From NCBI RefSeq assembly GCF_000381085.1, contig NZ_KB905900.1, forward strand, positions 1 through 64,000: 64,000 bases of DNA. Reading direction: 5' to 3'. The stretch is from Thiomicrorhabdus arctica DSM 13458. GTDB taxonomy: Bacteria > Pseudomonadota > Gammaproteobacteria > Thiomicrospirales > Thiomicrospiraceae. The position numbers and the translations under genes are program-made. The notes under the pieces were generated by a model that did no database searches, was not told where the DNA came from, and worked only from the letters and a program-made list of their open reading frames with translations. Below, one piece after another: positions 16,770 to 36,073 of this stretch. Every line of letters starts with the position of its first letter. The stretch's first letter is position 1.

Positions 16770-17009
16770 TTGAGAAGCCTTTTGATATTGATAGCCCTTT
16801 GATTTCAACTATAGGCTTCCCGTTACTTTTTTGTCGTTCAACAAAAGAGTAACCAAAAAAATGAACCCTGCTGACGCCCTCTATTTCACTAAGCTTGTCC
16901 GCTGACATTCCCTAAACTCGCTTCGCTCAAACAAAGGGAGGGGGTTCTACGTTATTTCTGTATCTATCAAATGAGTAATAATGGGCTTTTAAAAACAACC
17001 ATGCCTGGT
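16770..17009 (-). repeat. Structured repeat, copy A
   Basis: Runs from TTGAGAAGCCT (16770) to a degenerate palindrome ACCATGCCTGGT (16998-17009), on the minus strand relative to copies C, D and E. It contains an AAGCCT/AGGCTT pairing near the left end. It also has the stem 16822-16834 with 16841-16853, and the conserved-loop hairpin with stem 16906-16913 / 16935-16942. Much of its left 170 bp matches copy B closely. Confidence 0.85.
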
Positions 17010-18338: not shown

Positions 18339-19208
18339 ATGGCAATACAATGTTTTCCGGTGGATCGGGTCGCGTCGATCAGTAAAGACGATTTCCTGCG
18401 TCAGTATAAGAAGTCGGCGAAGCCGCTCGTGATCGAGGACCTGACGCAGAACTGGCCGGCGAGGGAGAAGTGGTCGGTAGATTATTTCAAGTCCACAGTC
18501 GGTGATACTATGGTACCGTTGTATGATAGCGAGCGTTCTACCGACAAAAAGCACCAGCATGCGGCGGCCGTGACCATGCCCTTTAAGGAGTACATCAGTT
18601 TATTGCAGGCAGGTGAGAAGAACCTGCGAATGTTCTTTTTTAACCTGCTTGCTGCGACCCCGGTGCTACGCAAGGATTTTGAGTTTCCGGACATTGGCCT
18701 GAAACTGTTTAAGAAATTGCCCGTGTTATTCATGGCGGGTAAAGGCGCCAGGGTGCAGATGCACTTCGATATTGATATGGCGGATATTCTCCTCTGTCAT
18801 TTCGGCGGTAAAAAACGTGTCACGCTCGTCTCGCCCGAACAGACGCGCTACCTCTATCGTGTTCCCTTCTCCTTCAGCAGTCTGTTTGATATTGACTACG
18901 ACAAACCTAACTTTGAGAAATATCCTGCATTGAAAAATATCAGGGCTGAGGTGGTCGAACTTAATCACGGTGATGTCCTGTATATTCCTCCCGGTTACTG
19001 GCATTACGTCCAGTACGATGAGATCAGTTTCTCGATGTCGTTGCGCGCCTTCCCCAGACAACCACGCACCCTTGCCAGGATGTTATACAACTTGCTGATG
19101 ATCCGTCCTATCGAGGGCCTCATGCGCAGACTGGTTGGCCAGCCATGGAATGATCGCAATGAACGCCGGGCGATCAGCAAAACCCATCGGCGACTTGGCA
19201 TTACCTGA
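18339..19208 (+). CDS. Cupin-like (JmjC-type) Fe/2OG oxygenase family protein
   Basis: A 289-residue protein of the Cupin_8/JmjC-like type. The N-terminus has KPLVIEDLTQNWPA, common at the start of this family. The iron site HxD is HFD at 142-144, and the distal histidine is in IPPGYWHYV at about 222; GGKKRVTLVSPEQ lies between. The substrate is unknown; relatives hydroxylate proteins or tRNA or modify small molecules. The gene is much richer in G+C than its neighbours, with codons such as CTG, GCC and CGC favoured, so recent transfer is likely. It follows the attC-like site by about 60 bp. Confidence 0.82.
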   Translation: MAIQCFPVDRVASISKDDFLRQYKKSAKPLVIEDLTQNWPAREKWSVDYFKSTVGDTMVPLYDSERSTDKKHQHAAAVTMPFKEYISLLQAGEKNLRMFFFNLLAATPVLRKDFEFPDIGLKLFKKLPVLFMAGKGARVQMHFDIDMADILLCHFGGKKRVTLVSPEQTRYLYRVPFSFSSLFDIDYDKPNFEKYPALKNIRAEVVELNHGDVLYIPPGYWHYVQYDEISFSMSLRAFPRQPRTLARMLYNLLMIRPIEGLMRRLVGQPWNDRNERRAISKTHRRLGIT

Positions 19209-19212
19209 ATGA

Positions 19213-19262
19213 AAATAAGGAGACGCTACCCTTTTATTCTGCTCAACCTAGTTGAGAAGCCT
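19213..19262. repeat. Left member of a 50 bp direct repeat
   Basis: GACGCTACCCTTTTA and AACCTAGTTGAGAA recur in the same order and spacing at 23303-23352. The two copies bracket the C-D-F repeats, SDR, oxidoreductase and LysR genes. Confidence 0.75.
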
Positions 19263-19545
19263 TTTTGATATTGTTAGACCTTTAATTTCAACTATAGGCT
19301 TCCCGTCACTTTATTTGCTTGTCCAAATAAAGTAACCAAACAAAAGACACCCTGCTGACGCCCTCTATTTCACTAAGCTTGTCCGCTGACATTCCCTAAA
19401 CTCGCTTCGCTCAAACACAGGGAGTGTTTAAACGCGTCCTTCACTAACTGAAATGACGATTGCTTACAAAAGGGGAGGTCTCCACGTGAGTTTGTCTATT
19501 CTGATTTAGGTCGTTGTAGTGCTTTTGGATTTGACCAGGCCTGGT
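19252..19545 (-). repeat. Structured repeat, copy B
   Basis: Begins TTGAGAAGCCT and ends at the exact palindrome 19534-19545. The stem ACTTTATTTG (19308-19317) / CAAATAAAGT (19324-19333) and the conserved-loop hairpin (stem 19390-19397 / 19419-19426) are present. Much of it is the reverse complement of copy E, 4 kb away. Confidence 0.9.
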
Positions 19546-19818
19546 CATTTTAAATTTAGAGTTTATCTGAAAACTTAAACTTCACACCGAAGCCCCCTTT
19601 GAAAGCAATTGTGGAAAGCTCTTAACGAAATGAACGTTGAAAATTCCCAGGTGTTTGAGCGCCAGCGAGTTCTGGGATTTCAGTGAATGAGTTTAGGGAA
19701 TGCCAATTGATTGAGCGGGGTGCCCTTTTGTGGTGACTATTTTGGGCACGCAAAATAGTCACGTGAAGCTAAATAATAAAATAGATTATGAATTACGGAA
19801 ATCAGTAAGGCTTCTCAA
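19534..19818 (+). repeat. Structured repeat, copy C
   Basis: Starts at the palindrome shared with copy B and ends AGGCTTCTCAA. Hairpins: AAATTCCCAG (19641-19650) with CTGGGATTT (19672-19680) around the conserved loop, and a perfect 12 bp stem GTGACTATTTTG (19733-19744) / CAAAATAGTCAC (19751-19762). Confidence 0.92.
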
Positions 19819-19845
19819 CTTATCGAGAAGCCTATTTTAGAACCT

Positions 19846-20128
19846 ACCAGGCCTGATAAGTTTGAATTTTGAGTTTATCTGAACAATAAAACCCCACGCC
19901 GAAGTCCCCTTTGAAAGCAATTGTGCAAAGCTCTTAACGAAGCGAACGATTAAAAATTCCAGGTGTTTGAGCGGAGCGAGTTCTGGAATTTCAGTGAACG
20001 AGTTTAGAGATTGCCAATTGATTGAGCGGGGTGCCCTTTTGTGGTGACTATTTTGGGCACACAAAATAGTCACGGGAAGCCTTTAAGAAAATAACTCAAG
20101 AAATATCGAATTTAGAAAGGCTTCTCAA
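19846..20128 (+). repeat. Structured repeat, copy D
   Basis: A tandem direct repeat of copy C with many substitutions. It starts at a degenerate palindrome (ACCAGGCCTGAT) and ends AGGCTTCTCAA. The conserved-loop hairpin has the perfect stem AAATTCCAG (19954-19962) / CTGGAATTT (19983-19991); the 12 bp stem is at 20044-20055 / 20062-20073. Confidence 0.92.
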
Positions 20129-20170
20129 TAGTCATCAATAACTCTTTCAAGCAATCTCAAAGTACAATCC

Positions 20171-20222
20171 ACCAGGCCTGGTCAGTTAGAATTTAGAGTT
20201 TATCTGAACAATAAAACCCAAT
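20171..20222 (+). repeat. Structured repeat, truncated copy F
   Basis: An exact palindrome (20171-20182) followed by about 40 bp matching the start of copies C and D (TTTAGAGTTTATCTGAACAA), then stopping. The 3' end of the SDR gene lies inside it. Confidence 0.85.
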
Positions 20223-21104
20223 GGGGTCTTCGTTACGCGTATATCTCGGATTACATGTCTCGAAAGTACTGGCAAGCCCTGTCAGTTCCAAACTTTTTTG
20301 CCATAGCATGTCCGCTAATTCCTCGTCATAAGACAATGTGGATGACCTCTCCATCTGCATTTGATTGAAGTATTTACCCGATACACCTTGAACTTCTGGC
20401 GAAGTACCCAAGAATATCTGTGCTTTCGCTCCTTGCTCAGGGGGGAGTCGGCCCATCGGGAAAGTCCTATTTGAATTCCTATCTTCAACACTAAATTTAG
20501 TCTCAACCACACCGGGGTGTACTGCATTGATGGTGGTGCTTGTCCCCTGTAAATATTTGGCCAATTTGTAGGTGAAAAGCAGGTTGGCGAGCTTAGAATC
20601 ACAGTAAGCGGAGAAGCCGTTATAATCGTGTGTATGCATAAGATTATTTACGTCTACTTTGCCGCTGAAATGAAGATCCGATGCAACGTTTATTATTCTT
20701 GATGAAGGCGTATTTGTTAACATATCCAGCAATAAGTGAGTCGCTAAAAAGTAGCCCAAGTGATTCACAGCAAATGTAAGTTCAATGCCTGCGTCTGTCT
20801 CAATTCTATTGTGACTCATCATTCCAGCATTATTAACAAGAATATCTAAACGACTGTATTTTCGTTTAATTTCGTCCGTAAACGCCACTATAGAAGACTG
20901 CGAAGAAAAGTCACATAGCAGCAGGTCGACGTTCATATTCTTTGAATAATGAATCACCTCTTGCAATGCAGCTTTGCCTCGTGCCTCATCCCTTGCAACC
21001 AAAATAGTGGTTGCCCCCATTTTCGCCAGCTCTTTCGCCGTCACTAATCCAATTCCGGATGTGCTTCCGGTGACTATGCATATTTTGTTATCTAGAGTGT
21101 TCAT
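20193..21104 (-). CDS. Short-chain dehydrogenase/reductase
   Basis: NAD(P)-dependent oxidoreductase of the SDR superfamily, closest in style to retinol-dehydrogenase-like enzymes. TGSTSGIG at 12-19 binds the cofactor, NNAG is near 91, and the catalytic YCDSK (YxxxK) is near 168. GGAGG lies seven bases before the ATG. The last 10 or so residues (PIGFYCSDKL) are encoded inside repeat copy F, so the native C-terminus may have been replaced when the repeat joined. It is in line with the oxidoreductase gene upstream on the same strand. Substrate unknown. Confidence 0.88.
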   Translation of the reverse strand: MNTLDNKICIVTGSTSGIGLVTAKELAKMGATTILVARDEARGKAALQEVIHYSKNMNVDLLLCDFSSQSSIVAFTDEIKRKYSRLDILVNNAGMMSHNRIETDAGIELTFAVNHLGYFLATHLLLDMLTNTPSSRIINVASDLHFSGKVDVNNLMHTHDYNGFSAYCDSKLANLLFTYKLAKYLQGTSTTINAVHPGVVETKFSVEDRNSNRTFPMGRLPPEQGAKAQIFLGTSPEVQGVSGKYFNQMQMERSSTLSYDEELADMLWQKSLELTGLASTFETCNPRYTRNEDPIGFYCSDKL

Positions 21105-21277
21105 TTTCGCCTCCGTTTGAGCGGGGTATTTACTGAAAAAGAGAATAACTAAAAGAGAAATGAATCGCTTTTACACGTATAGCTCTCAAAGGATTCACCC
21201 ATTCTCCAAGACTGTATTCCCCGCACCCACAGCGGTACTGAGACCGAGCCCCCCTTAAAAAGGAGTATTTAATGCTC

Positions 21278-22228
21278 TTATCGTATCTGGAGAACTATTT
21301 TGCCCCGAGTGTGGCTAGACTCGCTTTTTTTGTGTGCTTTAACGACGTCATCTAGCTGATAAACACTGTCTATTTCAACCTTTAGACTCCCTGAATCAAT
21401 CAAGCTGGCGATTTCCGATAGATGACCTGAATTCGGTTGAACAAAACAAAAATTGGCCTTGACGTCATGCTTGATCGCAAGCTCGTCGTTTGGGATCTCC
21501 GCAATTGAAACAAGGTTGCCACCTTTCTTTAAAGTCGACCAGGATTTTTCTAAAACGTCACCTCCCATCGTATCGAATATAAGATCCAAACCGTTCAATT
21601 TAGAAAAATCTTCCTGCATGTAGTCGATCACTTCATCTGCACCAAGGCTCTTCAAAAAATCAATATTTTTAGATGATGAGGTTGTGTAAACGGTTGCGCC
21701 TGCCTGTTTAGCAAGTTGAATAGCAGCATTTCCAACACCCCCTGCTCCAGCATGAATCAGTACTCGGTCGCCTGTTTTAATTTTGCCAATCTCGTTCAAG
21801 GCTTGCCATGCCGTCAGGGTGACTAATGGTACCGCTGCAGATTCCTGCCAGTTCAGCGTTTTAGGCTTGGCAGCAATTTCATCTGCTGACACTGTAATAT
21901 ACTCAGCGTATGTGCCATTTTTTGAAAGGTTTGGGTGAGAATAGACGGCATCGCCAACAGACCATTGCTTAACATTTTTTCCAACAGAGACAACTTGTCC
22001 CGCGAAATCCCAACCTAACGTTAAAGGCAGTCTGTGGGGTAAGAGTTCTGCCAAATATCCTTCGCGAACTTTCCAGTCAATGGGATTGACTCCAGCCGCA
22101 TGAATTTTTACCAAAACCTCATCTTCAGCAGGCACCGGTACTTTAGTATTTGTCAGTTGCAGTTGTTCTGCGCCTCCGTAGCTGTGAATTTGTACGGCTC
22201 TCATCTGCTCTTGATTGACATGATTCAT
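21278..22228 (-). CDS. NADP-dependent quinone oxidoreductase-like protein (MDR superfamily)
   Basis: Zinc-free medium-chain dehydrogenase/reductase of 316 residues. It has the N-terminal GVNPIDWKVREG block, LGWDFAGQVVSVG near 75, the cofactor motif HAGAGGVGNAAIQLAKQAGA near 156 and the family C-terminus HTRGKIVLQI. AGGAG precedes the ATG. A LysR-family gene starts 140 bp away on the opposite strand, the usual layout for a regulator controlling its neighbour. Together with the SDR gene it may form a small redox or detoxification unit. Confidence 0.9.
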   Translation of the reverse strand: MNHVNQEQMRAVQIHSYGGAEQLQLTNTKVPVPAEDEVLVKIHAAGVNPIDWKVREGYLAELLPHRLPLTLGWDFAGQVVSVGKNVKQWSVGDAVYSHPNLSKNGTYAEYITVSADEIAAKPKTLNWQESAAVPLVTLTAWQALNEIGKIKTGDRVLIHAGAGGVGNAAIQLAKQAGATVYTTSSSKNIDFLKSLGADEVIDYMQEDFSKLNGLDLIFDTMGGDVLEKSWSTLKKGGNLVSIAEIPNDELAIKHDVKANFCFVQPNSGHLSEIASLIDSGSLKVEIDSVYQLDDVVKAHKKSESSHTRGKIVLQIR

Positions 22229-22368
22229 ATCGTTCTCCTATTAGCGCCTTAAGTAGCGATTTGATTGATTTACCTTATGGGCTATAAGATTAACGAAGGA
22301 AGTCCCCCTTGACTAGATAGGGCAAACGCACTACATTGTTTCCATTCTCTCAACAATAGGCCTCTAGA

Positions 22369-23280
22369 ATGAACAACCAACGATTGGATATCTTGCCTGC
22401 TCTGGTTCTTTTTGCGCGAATTGTTCAATATGGAAGTTTGACTGCCGCTGCTCAAAATTCTGGTTTGAGTCGTTCTGCCGTGAGTAAACAGCTGAGTGCA
22501 TTGGAAGAAAAACTTGGCGCTCGACTTCTTCAACGCAGTACTCGAAGTTTCAAACTAACGGCCGCTGGCAAACAAATATTAGGCGAGGCCAGGCGCGCAC
22601 AGGAGGCTCTAGAGAATGTCGAAATGTTGTCTGAAGAGTTGGAAGGCCATGTACGTGGGAATCTAACGGTTTCTTGCTCTGCGGGTATTGGACGTGTTCA
22701 TTTGGTTCCTTTACTAAAGCAATTTCAAGAACTCTACCCGCAAGTACATGTACAGCTCTTACTTGAAGATAGAATGGTCAATTTAATTGATGAGCAAATT
22801 GATGTCGCAATTCGTGTAGGCCATCTTCCTGATTCCTCATTAATCGGATTGCGTCTTGGGGAGATGAGTTGGGTTGTGTGCGCAAGCCCTGAATACTTGA
22901 AAAAAAATGGGACACCTAAAACCCCTACTGATTTACTTCAACACGATTGCCTTTATTATCAAAATAGTCAAAGTTCGTTCAATATTTGGTCGTTTCAGGG
23001 ACCTAAAGGAGATGAGAGGGTTTCAATAAATGGTTCTCTCTCTATCAATGATTCTACGGTATTGGTCCAAGTCGCTGAAGAGGGTCGTGGCATTGTGTGG
23101 ATAGACAAACATTCACTCGGTGACGCGCTCGAAAAAGGGCGACTTGTTTCGATACTGGAAGAATATAACCTTGGACTCGGTTACCCAATTTATTTGCTCT
23201 ATCCCGCCCGACAACACTTAGCTGCAAAAACAAGAGCATTTGTTGATTTTTTAAGCGTTCAATTTTCACCTAGGGTCTGA
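22369..23280 (+). CDS. LysR-family transcriptional regulator
   Basis: 303-residue DNA-binding regulator. The N-terminal winged helix-turn-helix is typical (AAQNSGLSRSAVSKQLSALEEKLGARLLQRSTRSF, about residues 27-61). A substrate-binding domain follows, with GHLPDSSLIGLRLGEMSWVVCASPEYL in the style of the CrgA-like subgroup. It is divergent from the quinone oxidoreductase gene and probably controls it; the inducer is unknown. A strong hairpin follows the stop codon by 27 bp. Confidence 0.92.
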   Translation: MNNQRLDILPALVLFARIVQYGSLTAAAQNSGLSRSAVSKQLSALEEKLGARLLQRSTRSFKLTAAGKQILGEARRAQEALENVEMLSEELEGHVRGNLTVSCSAGIGRVHLVPLLKQFQELYPQVHVQLLLEDRMVNLIDEQIDVAIRVGHLPDSSLIGLRLGEMSWVVCASPEYLKKNGTPKTPTDLLQHDCLYYQNSQSSFNIWSFQGPKGDERVSINGSLSINDSTVLVQVAEEGRGIVWIDKHSLGDALEKGRLVSILEEYNLGLGYPIYLLYPARQHLAAKTRAFVDFLSVQFSPRV

Positions 23281-23302
23281 CACCACTAAATTTAATGTAA
23301 AA

Positions 23303-23352
23303 CACTGTAAAAGGGTGACGCTACCCTTTTACACTACATTAACCTAGTTGAG
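23303..23352. repeat. Right member of 50 bp direct repeat
   Basis: Matches 19213-19262. It includes GACGCTACCCTTTTA and AACCTAGTTGAGAA, then passes into a short stretch ending at the degenerate palindrome at 23381. Confidence 0.75.
23307..23332 (+). terminator. Hairpin after the LysR gene
   Basis: Perfect stem GTAAAAGGGT (23307-23316) / ACCCTTTTAC (23323-23332) with loop GACGCT. The trailing U-run is only partial. The loop and right arm recur after the cupin gene. Confidence 0.5.
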
Positions 23353-23380
23353 AATCCTATCTCCTTGGACTTTTAAAGCG

Positions 23381-23711
23381 ACCAGGCCTGCTATGTCCTG
23401 CGGCTTTAAAATATTATGTGAGCGCAAGGTCAAATCCAAAAGCACTACATAAACCGAATCAAGAATAGACAAACTAACGTGGAGACCACCCCTTTTGTAA
23501 GCAATCGTCATTTCAGTTAGCGTAGGTGGCGTTAAAAGATTTCATTGTCTGAGTGAAGCGAGTTATGAAATCTTAGCCAACAAGCTTAGTGAAATAGAGG
23601 GCGTCAGCAGGGTGTCTTTTGTTTGGTTACTTTATTTGGACAAGCAAATAAAGTGACGAGAAGCCTATATGCAATCAATTTAGAAATACAAAGTGAAGAA
23701 AGGCTTCTCAA
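23381..23711 (+). repeat. Structured repeat, copy E
   Basis: Starts at a degenerate palindrome (ACCAGGCCTGCT) and ends AGGCTTCTCAA. Conserved-loop hairpin: perfect stem AAGATTTCAT (23536-23545) / ATGAAATCTT (23565-23574). Second stem: ACTTTATTTG (23629-23638) / CAAATAAAGT (23645-23654). Its head carries an extra segment of about 35 bp, also found near 48.2 kb. Confidence 0.9.
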
Positions 23712-34424: not shown

Positions 34425-35046
34425 AATATAATTCCAATGTTAAGAGTAAAATTTTACTTACTTAAGCATTGCAGCTCAGCCATCTTTGCGAACCTGTGCC
34501 TCAAAGACCTGTAGCTTTCCGTTGCTTTACTCACGTAAAGATTGGCCTATACTTATAAAGTTCAAGCACTATGTTATAGATTAGTATTTAAACGTACAAA
34601 CAAAAATAACTTATAGTGCATTCAATAAGTTAATGACCCTCTTAAATAGAGGATGATTTGTAAAAGGTGCACATAATCTTTTTTAGTTTTGATCGGATTC
34701 AAAGACAATTTCATTCACCACACGTTTTAACGATAAAAGCCGTTTGACGAATATCCTGGGAAAAATCTATGTATTGAGCCGAACTTTCGAAAGAGAGGTT
34801 ATGTAAATTTTACCCCTGAGATTCACCTTAAAATGAATAGAGTGTTTCAATGGGTAATTTAGGAAAACAAAAAAAGAATGTATACACATTTTACGAAAGA
34901 GGGGGTTAGAACAGAGTAAGCCAAAAAATATTTTACTCTGTCCTTTTTTTGAATCAATTGAGACTTAGCCATTTAACGAATGGGTCATGGCGACATAATC
35001 CATCCGATTAACGTCTTCTTTCTAAGCCATTTCAAATGAAACGATT
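34425..35046. other. Intergenic gap between the two PEP-CTERM genes
   Basis: 622 bp. The first 125 bp are the leader and riboswitch of copy 1. The last 140 bp repeat the downstream layout of copy 1, including the CAGAGTAA / TTACTCTG hairpin (34912-34919 / 34933-34940). The middle is AT-rich with no recognisable feature. Confidence 0.6.
34465..34550 (-). promoter_or_regulatory. c-di-GMP-I (GEMM)-like riboswitch, copy 1
   Basis: On the minus strand, GGC-CAA is followed by a hairpin TCTTTAC with a GTGA (GNRA) tetraloop and GTAAAG. Then come AACGGAAAGC, ACAGGTC, a CTTTG/CAAAG hairpin and GATGGCTGAGCTGC. Order, tetraloop and the ACGxAAAGC element match the known Vibrio Vc2 aptamer. It lies 40-125 bases before the PEP-CTERM start codon. 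Ligand identity is inferred. Confidence 0.75.
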
Positions 35047-35631: not shown

Positions 35632-36073
35632 AATATATTCTTCCAATGTTAAGAGTAAAAAGTTTACAAACTTAAGCATTGCAACCCAGCCATCTTAGTG
35701 GAACATCCCTCAAAGATCTGCAGCTTTCCGTACTTAACTCACGTCAAGTTTGGCTTTATCTATAAATTCAGTATTTATACTACCCTAGTACACTAAAATA
35801 CACTAATAAAAAATTACTCAGAGTTATTTAAAAATTTAATGACGTTGTTAGATCTTTTTTATTGATCCTAATGAACGAATGAGAAGATGACAGTAGAATA
35901 ACGTGCAGTACACGCATACCCTTGTCATGCTTTTATTTCAGATATATTAAGCTAAAATTCATGATCTGATCACTCACAATTTTCATCTTTTTTAAATCAT
36001 AAAATTCACGGCTAAAAGCTTTTAATTGTTTTACAATCTTAGCTTAACATTCACGCTAACGATCGAGAACACA
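35632..36073. other. Intergenic gap before malic enzyme
   Basis: 442 bp. The first 125 bp are the leader and riboswitch of PEP-CTERM copy 2. The remainder is AT-rich and presumably holds the promoters of both divergent genes; no clear -35/-10 pair stands out. Confidence 0.5.
35675..35756 (-). promoter_or_regulatory. c-di-GMP-I (GEMM)-like riboswitch, copy 2
   Basis: Same element order as copy 1. The hairpin arms are ACTTGAC/GTTAAGT around the same GTGA tetraloop, then TACGGAAAGC, CAGATC, an ATCTT/AAGAT hairpin and GATGGCTGGGTTGC. The stems differ from copy 1 but still pair, while loops and junctions are kept, which supports a selected RNA fold. Confidence 0.78.

Follow-up and report, generated by a model that had tools for sequence, protein, structure and literature searches.

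Inverted pairs of structured half-elements with a predicted triple-helix pseudoknot in Thiomicrorhabdus arctica and several bacterial phyla

Telomerase RNA contains a pseudoknot whose first loop serves as a third strand in stem 2. Two Rfam families, TwoAYGGAY (RF01731) and Bp1_684 (RF02421), are described by models that hold no pseudoknot: the former as an outer stem enclosing two hairpins, the latter as a 113-nt consensus. In the excerpts of the source papers considered here, TwoAYGGAY is listed as a probable RNA with, in all likelihood, no cis-regulatory role (Weinberg et al., PMC2864571), CsrA binding is proposed for it (PMC4333381), and Bp1_684 is reported as detected by reverse-transcription PCR (RT-PCR) in Burkholderia pseudomallei (PMC3521395); a downstream pseudoknot is mentioned in none of these three excerpts. 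For SAM-V, the abstract of PMC6061858 describes loop 1 as a third strand in stem 2. Here, we describe a repeated element in a 64,000-nucleotide stretch of the Thiomicrorhabdus arctica DSM 13458 genome (contig NZ_KB905900.1, positions 1 to 64,000; hereafter the window), built of ~230-bp half-elements that consist, from 5' to 3', of an outer stem, a hairpin around a near-fixed loop, an H-type pseudoknot and a 3' hairpin. We found no description of this pseudoknot in open-licence PubMed Central papers, where, of five pseudoknot strings searched, only the 12-mer TTTGGTTACTTT occurs, in 7 papers that concern unrelated topics, judging by their titles and abstract openings.

A preliminary description of the window had reported, in five copies named A to E, two successive hairpins whose stems change in sequence while still pairing, and had concluded that the folded form matters unless a wider alignment lacked significant covariation. 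From the same genome and its relatives, 48 stretches were fetched, and a profile search with one copy per type defined two half types of ~230 bp; 16 short matches of halves were set aside. Covariation was assessed by shuffles and column slides instead of R-scape, and domains longer than 125 nt were excluded; of the references retained, 32 of 39 for type 1 and 24 of 29 for type 2 were aligned. With shuffles that, like those for the pseudoknot below, were not corrected for relatedness, the type-1 alignment contains 109 cells in which both sides have changed and still pair, against 30.7 ± 5.2 expected, and the type-2 alignment 87 against 28.0 ± 4.3; none of 500 shuffles reached either value, and the signal vanished once the 3' partner was displaced by 1 to 3 columns. 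The reading that folding matters is thus supported, with double changes far above the shuffled level. In type 1, the outer stem P1 is paired in 93.8% of cells and encloses P2 and P3, the latter being the first hairpin (98.9% paired, with double changes in 8 of 9 pairs); in type 2, the corresponding values are 95.6% for P1 and 97.9% for P3. The P3 loop retains TGTTTGA-GCGNAGC-GAGTT, with an internal mini-hairpin that is itself variable, and the same loop, again within an outer stem, occurs in an element of the betaproteobacterium Variovorax.

Beyond these stems, the analysis revealed three features absent from the preliminary description: a co-varying third strand, a head-to-head arrangement of the halves, and a distribution of the module across several phyla. 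What had been taken for a second hairpin does show compensatory changes but is an H-type pseudoknot, which rules out an interpretation in terms of simple hairpins only. Its stem 1 is formed between the four bases that precede loop 1 and the initial four of a six-base hairpin loop (TGCC/GGCA, TGTC/GACA, TTCG/CGAA, GCTG/CAGC, TCGC/GCGA and others, 15 different stem-1 sequences in all). The hairpin loop is 6 nt long in 96 of 98 unique pseudoknots, and stem 1 is perfect in 63 of the 98, compared with 13.3 ± 3.0 when loops were shuffled among copies (maximum 24 in 2000 shuffles). Of 43 distinct pseudoknots, the 23 whose stem 2 has 13 pairs served to build a covariance model; in their gapless alignment, 99.7% of cells in both stems are paired, double changes occur in 11 pairs, and 60 double-change cells contrast with 13.8 ± 2.9 after shuffling. 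Sliding the 3' partner, which keeps relatedness intact, left at most 9 such cells. The two interleaved stems of an H-type pseudoknot are therefore kept by covariation.

Loop 1 of this pseudoknot is parallel to the 3' (purine) strand of stem 2, and the two vary together according to T.A, C.G, G.T, the code of a parallel pyrimidine-motif triplex. Combinations of loop 1 with the stem-2 strand include TTTCTTTG with AAAGAAAG, TTCTTTTG with AAGAAAAG, TTCTCTTG with AAGAGAAG, TTTCTGTTG with AAAGATAAG, TTGTCTTTG with AATAGAAAG, and TTTTTGTG with AAAAATAG. Among 79 unique pseudoknots, 478 of 553 positions fit the code in one fixed parallel register, against 379 ± 7 when permuted (maximum 404 in 5000). 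Of the 58 non-A sites in 42 distinct loop/strand combinations, 31 obey the code, against 8.05 ± 2.4 (maximum 18). Loop 1 could instead be an alternative antiparallel strand for stem 2; at sites where the two arrangements predict different bases, 52 follow the parallel third strand, 8 the antiparallel pairing and 12 neither, and we rejected the antiparallel candidate on this count, even though lenient rules give 83.7% for its best register and 86.4% for the parallel register. Further loci scanned without selection on loop 1 yielded 50 distinct candidates, 24 of which fit at all seven positions, most of them repeating earlier combinations; the other 26 fit more poorly, lie one register off or are chance hairpins. 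This pattern is as expected if loop 1 occupies the stem-2 major groove as a third strand, that is, of a predicted triple helix, and its register matches the telomerase RNA topology.

The window holds five copies of the ~230-bp half-element, of which B and C form a head-to-head pair and A, D and E are extra halves; the copies and their parts are as follows.

16771 to 16943, minus strand: copy A, a truncated type-1 half-element, with its pseudoknot at 16821 to 16867 (minus)
19253 to 19488, minus strand: copy B, a type-1 half-element, 85–91% identical to copies elsewhere in the genome
19304 to 19351, minus strand: copy B, predicted triple-helix pseudoknot
19390 to 19426, minus strand: copy B, hairpin 1 (P3), with a single C-A mismatch in the stem
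19583 to 19817, plus strand: copy C, a type-2 half-element, head to head with copy B
19641 to 19680, plus strand: copy C, hairpin 1 (P3), AAATTCCCAG/CTGGGATTT
19720 to 19762, plus strand: copy C, pseudoknot, GTGCCC + TTTTGTG + GTGACTATTTTG + GGCAC + G + CAAAATAGTCAC
19895 to 20127, plus strand: copy D, a second type-2 half-element
19954 to 19991, plus strand: copy D, hairpin 1 (P3), AAATTCCAG/CTGGAATTT
20031 to 20073, plus strand: copy D, pseudoknot
23477 to 23710, plus strand: copy E, a type-1 half-element
23510 to 23595, plus strand: copy E, outer stem P1 enclosing P2 and P3, ATTTCAGTTAG ... CTTAGTGAAAT
23536 to 23574, plus strand: copy E, hairpin 1 (P3), AAGATTTCAT/ATGAAATCTT
23611 to 23658, plus strand: copy E, pseudoknot, TGTC + TTTTGTTTG + GTTACTTTATTTG + GACA + AG + CAAATAAAGTGAC
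23700 to 23711, plus strand: copy E, 3' end motif AAGGCTTCTCAA, the 3' side of a GAAGCC/GGCTTC hairpin

The hairpins around the near-fixed loop are present in all five copies with the stems and loops previously described, and, with up to 3 mismatches allowed, the hairpin-1 loop GTTTGAGCGAAGCGAGTT occurs 4 times in the window where 0.6 occurrences are expected. The span 19641-23574 covers C, D and E; hairpin 1 of B (19390-19426) and the whole of A (16771-16943) lie outside it. Two details of the preliminary description need correction, since pairing, said to be kept each time, is not perfect: the first stem of copy B has a C-A mismatch (CACTCCCT against AGGGAATG), and the truncated copy A retains only part of stem 1 and has one C-A mismatch in its second stem.

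Further repeats lie around these copies. A hairpin-like motif outside the half-elements, GGGTGACGCTACCC followed by TTTT, stands at 23309 (window 23300-23332), and a similar one at 19214 (19214-19240) and beside other copies. The 12-bp palindrome ACCAGGCCTGGT is a highly iterated palindrome, with 333 occurrences in the 2.55-Mb genome against 0 for a backwards-read control; it lies within and between genes, often beside half-elements (window positions 137, 2933, 15392, 19534, 20171, 23754 and others). The window also contains two c-di-GMP-I riboswitches, both on the minus strand (34467-34556 and 35677-35764). The SDR, alcohol dehydrogenase and LysR genes between copies D and E were considered as a gene cassette, a reading we dropped as no second such arrangement was seen.

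With one repeat copy as query, 20 places were recovered in the organism's own genome, and matches were found in 25 of 58 genomes searched, including 21 of 32 genomes of the genus. A type-1 and a type-2 half usually stand head to head, ~95–110 bp apart with their tails outward. Among 52 clusters (from 47 of the 48 stretches, counted without stretch L098 and the window's own clusters), 34 hold halves on opposite strands, and all 34 of these contain a pair with the minus-strand half on the left and the plus-strand half on the right. In 68 of 104 cases, the neighbouring gene has its 3' end towards the cluster; 20 of the 52 clusters lie between convergent and 4 between divergent genes. Small hairpins such as TTTCTCG..CTC..CGAGTTCTTCGTTT and TACCCCAAGGGCACTTCC..GGGC are inserted in loops and stems of half-elements at L061, L063, L065, L069, L074, L077, L081, L086, L092, L095 and L097, as if they had jumped into the larger hairpins.

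The pseudoknot extends far beyond the genus. An exact 46-base pattern searched in one-genome-per-species contigs retrieved 18 stretches: nine from Thioalkalivibrio, one from Halothiobacillaceae, three from Xanthocytophaga, one from a Bacteroidetes metagenome-assembled genome (MAG), three from Selenomonadaceae MAGs and one labelled Kiritimatiellae. The copies in the last of these (L104, JAQICX010000126.1) resemble those of the window's genus, including ACCAGGCCTGGT; judging by this resemblance, it is probably a MAG contaminated by that genus, and it was excluded from the pseudoknot statistics. Plasmid records with the pseudoknot come from Caballeronia (4), Pseudoalteromonas (2), Ilyobacter (1) and Variovorax (1). 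The covariance model matched 64 of 274 sampled genomes of the organism's class and 78 of 398 of its phylum, and the pseudoknot is also present in Bacteroidota, Negativicutes and Fusobacteria. Matches per genome reach 149 and 67 in Selenomonadaceae, 54 in Xanthocytophaga, 20 in Thioalkalivibrio sulfidiphilus and 11 in the Bacteroidetes MAG. The pseudoknot is intergenic in all three stretches or records with full gene tables, the other tables being nearly empty. Among 29 class loci (L124, L126-L153), a head-to-head partner was found in 12 (one weak) and a tail-to-tail partner in 1. A separate region, G620:C8:268958-270043, holds a nested symmetric array of two minus-strand followed by two plus-strand pseudoknots, ~250 bp apart within each half. 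A phage origin was rejected, with 2 weak partial matches in phage records and 0 in both viral contigs and E. coli genomes.

In two plasmids of Caballeronia sp. NK8, a near-palindromic unit of ~610 bp occurs in 13 full or nearly full copies, together with one half and some solo ends. Both termini are alike and read outward, thus providing the terminal inverted repeats by which a miniature inverted-repeat transposable element (MITE) is recognised, and the flanks of the copies are unrelated. The strand on which each half folds can also be read from the copies. Stem-2 pairs 7–12, read without scoring, comprise 26 G.T against 3 A.C in 89 unique copies, and the more stable fold belongs to the outward strand in 45 of 47 type-1 and 39 of 41 type-2 halves. 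Every half thus has its fold on the strand that reads outward from it, a pattern indicating two divergent single strands (RNA or single-stranded DNA) rather than a cruciform. The RT-PCR detection of Bp1_684, primed with oligo(dT) according to the excerpt of PMC3521395 and hence not resolving the strand, points to transcription of a relative and counts in favour of the RNA reading.

The half-elements can be compared with several known families. At 17 of 30 fetched TwoAYGGAY loci (one a partial match), the pseudoknot lies directly 3' of the TwoAYGGAY fold on the same strand. TwoAYGGAY itself was found in 17 of the 274 class genomes; the loci with a pseudoknot come from 10 of these, and the other 7 gave no pseudoknot match at the fetched loci. 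The Rfam model differs in lacking the pseudoknot, the third strand and the inverted pair. In the window, RF01731 had no match at the gathering score, nor any at E ≤ 5 within 19180-20260, and none was obtained in the organism's own genome; both type alignments of the window's genus contain an outer stem but one main hairpin with the loop TGTTTGAGCGNAGCGAGTT, not two AYGGAY-loop hairpins. The Bp1_684 consensus starts within the 3' strand of the pseudoknot's second stem, runs through the 3' hairpin and thus covers the 3' end only, and matches Caballeronia locus L121 with 51.3 bits; RF02421 had no match in the window, and none in the 274 class genomes, where the search controls likewise gave no match. 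The half-elements share the topology of SAM-V but, unlike SAM-II and SAM-V, they are multi-copy, intergenic and paired in inverted orientation instead of standing upstream of one gene class, and they place G at inverted pairs in loop 1. No position upstream of methionine/SAM metabolism genes was found: the clusters mostly face gene 3' ends, and the identified neighbours are unrelated genes. Nor is a ligand or a reverse transcriptase known for the half-elements. Like REP/BIME sequences and MITEs, they are repeated intergenic palindromic units in alternating orientation, yet they carry a conserved pseudoknot and show only a weak association with a transposase; a half-element is also far longer than a REP.

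We give about an even chance to the reading that this is a mobile-like repeat holding two outward structured RNAs, each capped by a triple-helix pseudoknot. The usual unit is an inverted pair of half-elements reading outward, each acting most likely as a ~230-nt single-stranded RNA composed of a 5' domain (an outer stem with one or two hairpins), the H-type pseudoknot and a 3' hairpin. In many lineages, the 5' domain consists of two GGA-loop hairpins as in TwoAYGGAY, which makes it plausible that a Csr/Rsm-type protein binds there; the genus of the window has another fold at this place. The first loop of the pseudoknot would be a third strand lying along the stem-2 major groove, and the triple helix may form a rigid 3' cap or a protein grip that protects the RNA or is recognised by the enzyme spreading the element, with the pair moving, or having moved, as one unit. 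Covariation demonstrates the structure and the folding strand; transcription, a binding partner and function, and a mobiliser we infer.

Several observations weigh against this proposal. C.G triples require protonation, single-stranded DNA would yield the same strand signal, and the scan of the window cluster for sigma-70-like promoters gave none, where shuffles predict 2.0. At the 13 Caballeronia copies, no target-site duplication was seen by eye; no mobiliser is encoded in the element, a systematic search for an autonomous relative not having been made; and the comparison within the genus yielded no empty site because the flanking genes differ (of 32 genomes, 1 has the cupin gene and 5 have the TfoX gene). 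In addition, 18 of the 52 clusters are single halves, 16 of the 29 class loci hold no second pseudoknot at the threshold used, and 36 of 163 parsed regions failed, several through an insertion breaking the pseudoknot or a stem-1 mismatch.

The mobility-related evidence could also be explained by a non-autonomous, MITE-like DNA transposon whose ends fold as single-stranded DNA for a Y1/RAYT-type transposase, the fold then mattering for transposition only. The terminal inverted arrangement, the multi-copy and intergenic occurrence, and the solo ends and half copies all fit such an element, as does the hairpin-1 loop, which often reads GCGNAGC, a very stable DNA mini-hairpin. Y1_Tnp (PF01797) is commoner in pseudoknot-positive than in negative class genomes (52 of 64 versus 134 of 210; Fisher p = 0.009), but this association is weak and uncorrected for phylogeny, with 12 positive genomes lacking a match. 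Moreover, the two halves fold on opposite strands, unlike IS200/IS605 elements, whose ends fold on the same strand, and no target-site pattern was found at the Caballeronia copies, so that we regard this explanation as rather unlikely. The 5' domain raises a different possibility, a Csr/Rsm-type regulatory RNA in which GGA-loop hairpins would titrate CsrA, with the pseudoknot lending stability to the 3' end. Besides TwoAYGGAY standing directly 5' of the pseudoknot, a GGA-loop hairpin occurs within 260 nt 5' of it in 26 of 40 loci (20 with two; 2 of 42 loci were skipped as too short). The corresponding counts are 10 of 40 for the 3' side and, for the opposite strand, 4 and 6 of 40. In the window's genus, however, the 5' domain lacks a GGA-loop hairpin pair and has no RF01731 match, type 1 offering an unpaired AGGA in many copies and type 2 none, and a sponge RNA would not usually be present in more than 100 copies per genome. 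As an account of the whole element it appears improbable. Least probable, in our view, is a bidirectional terminator or mRNA 3'-end stabiliser between convergent genes: the gene 3' ends facing the clusters and the excess of convergent over divergent neighbours favour it, but such placement is also expected from selection against harmful insertions, the folding strand is the outward one and thus antisense to read-through from the neighbouring genes, and a scan of the window cluster for terminator-like sites found 3 against 1.4 expected.

Among these readings, we prefer the mobile-like repeat with two outward structured RNAs, and what it describes seems to be a widespread structural RNA-like module hitherto known in fragments only. 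A broader proposal, which we offer tentatively as a possibility well short of an even chance, is that the copies belong to one widespread class of selfish or domesticated structured-RNA elements, spread over at least four phyla with up to more than 100 copies per genome and known only as the unconnected TwoAYGGAY and Bp1_684. Its hallmarks would be the telomerase-like triple-helix pseudoknot at the 3' end and the inverted pair of RNA genes, and the triple helix might be the handle for an enzyme that copies or moves the element, perhaps a reverse transcriptase or a transposase acting on single strands. A co-varying third strand is seldom visible in sequence data, and the pseudoknot joins two orphan Rfam families into one architecture. 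Its presence in about a quarter of the sampled class genomes implies that annotation by current Rfam models overlooks many copies. The function of TwoAYGGAY-type RNAs thereby becomes testable, through the binder of the pseudoknot, the transcription of both halves and the agent that spreads them.

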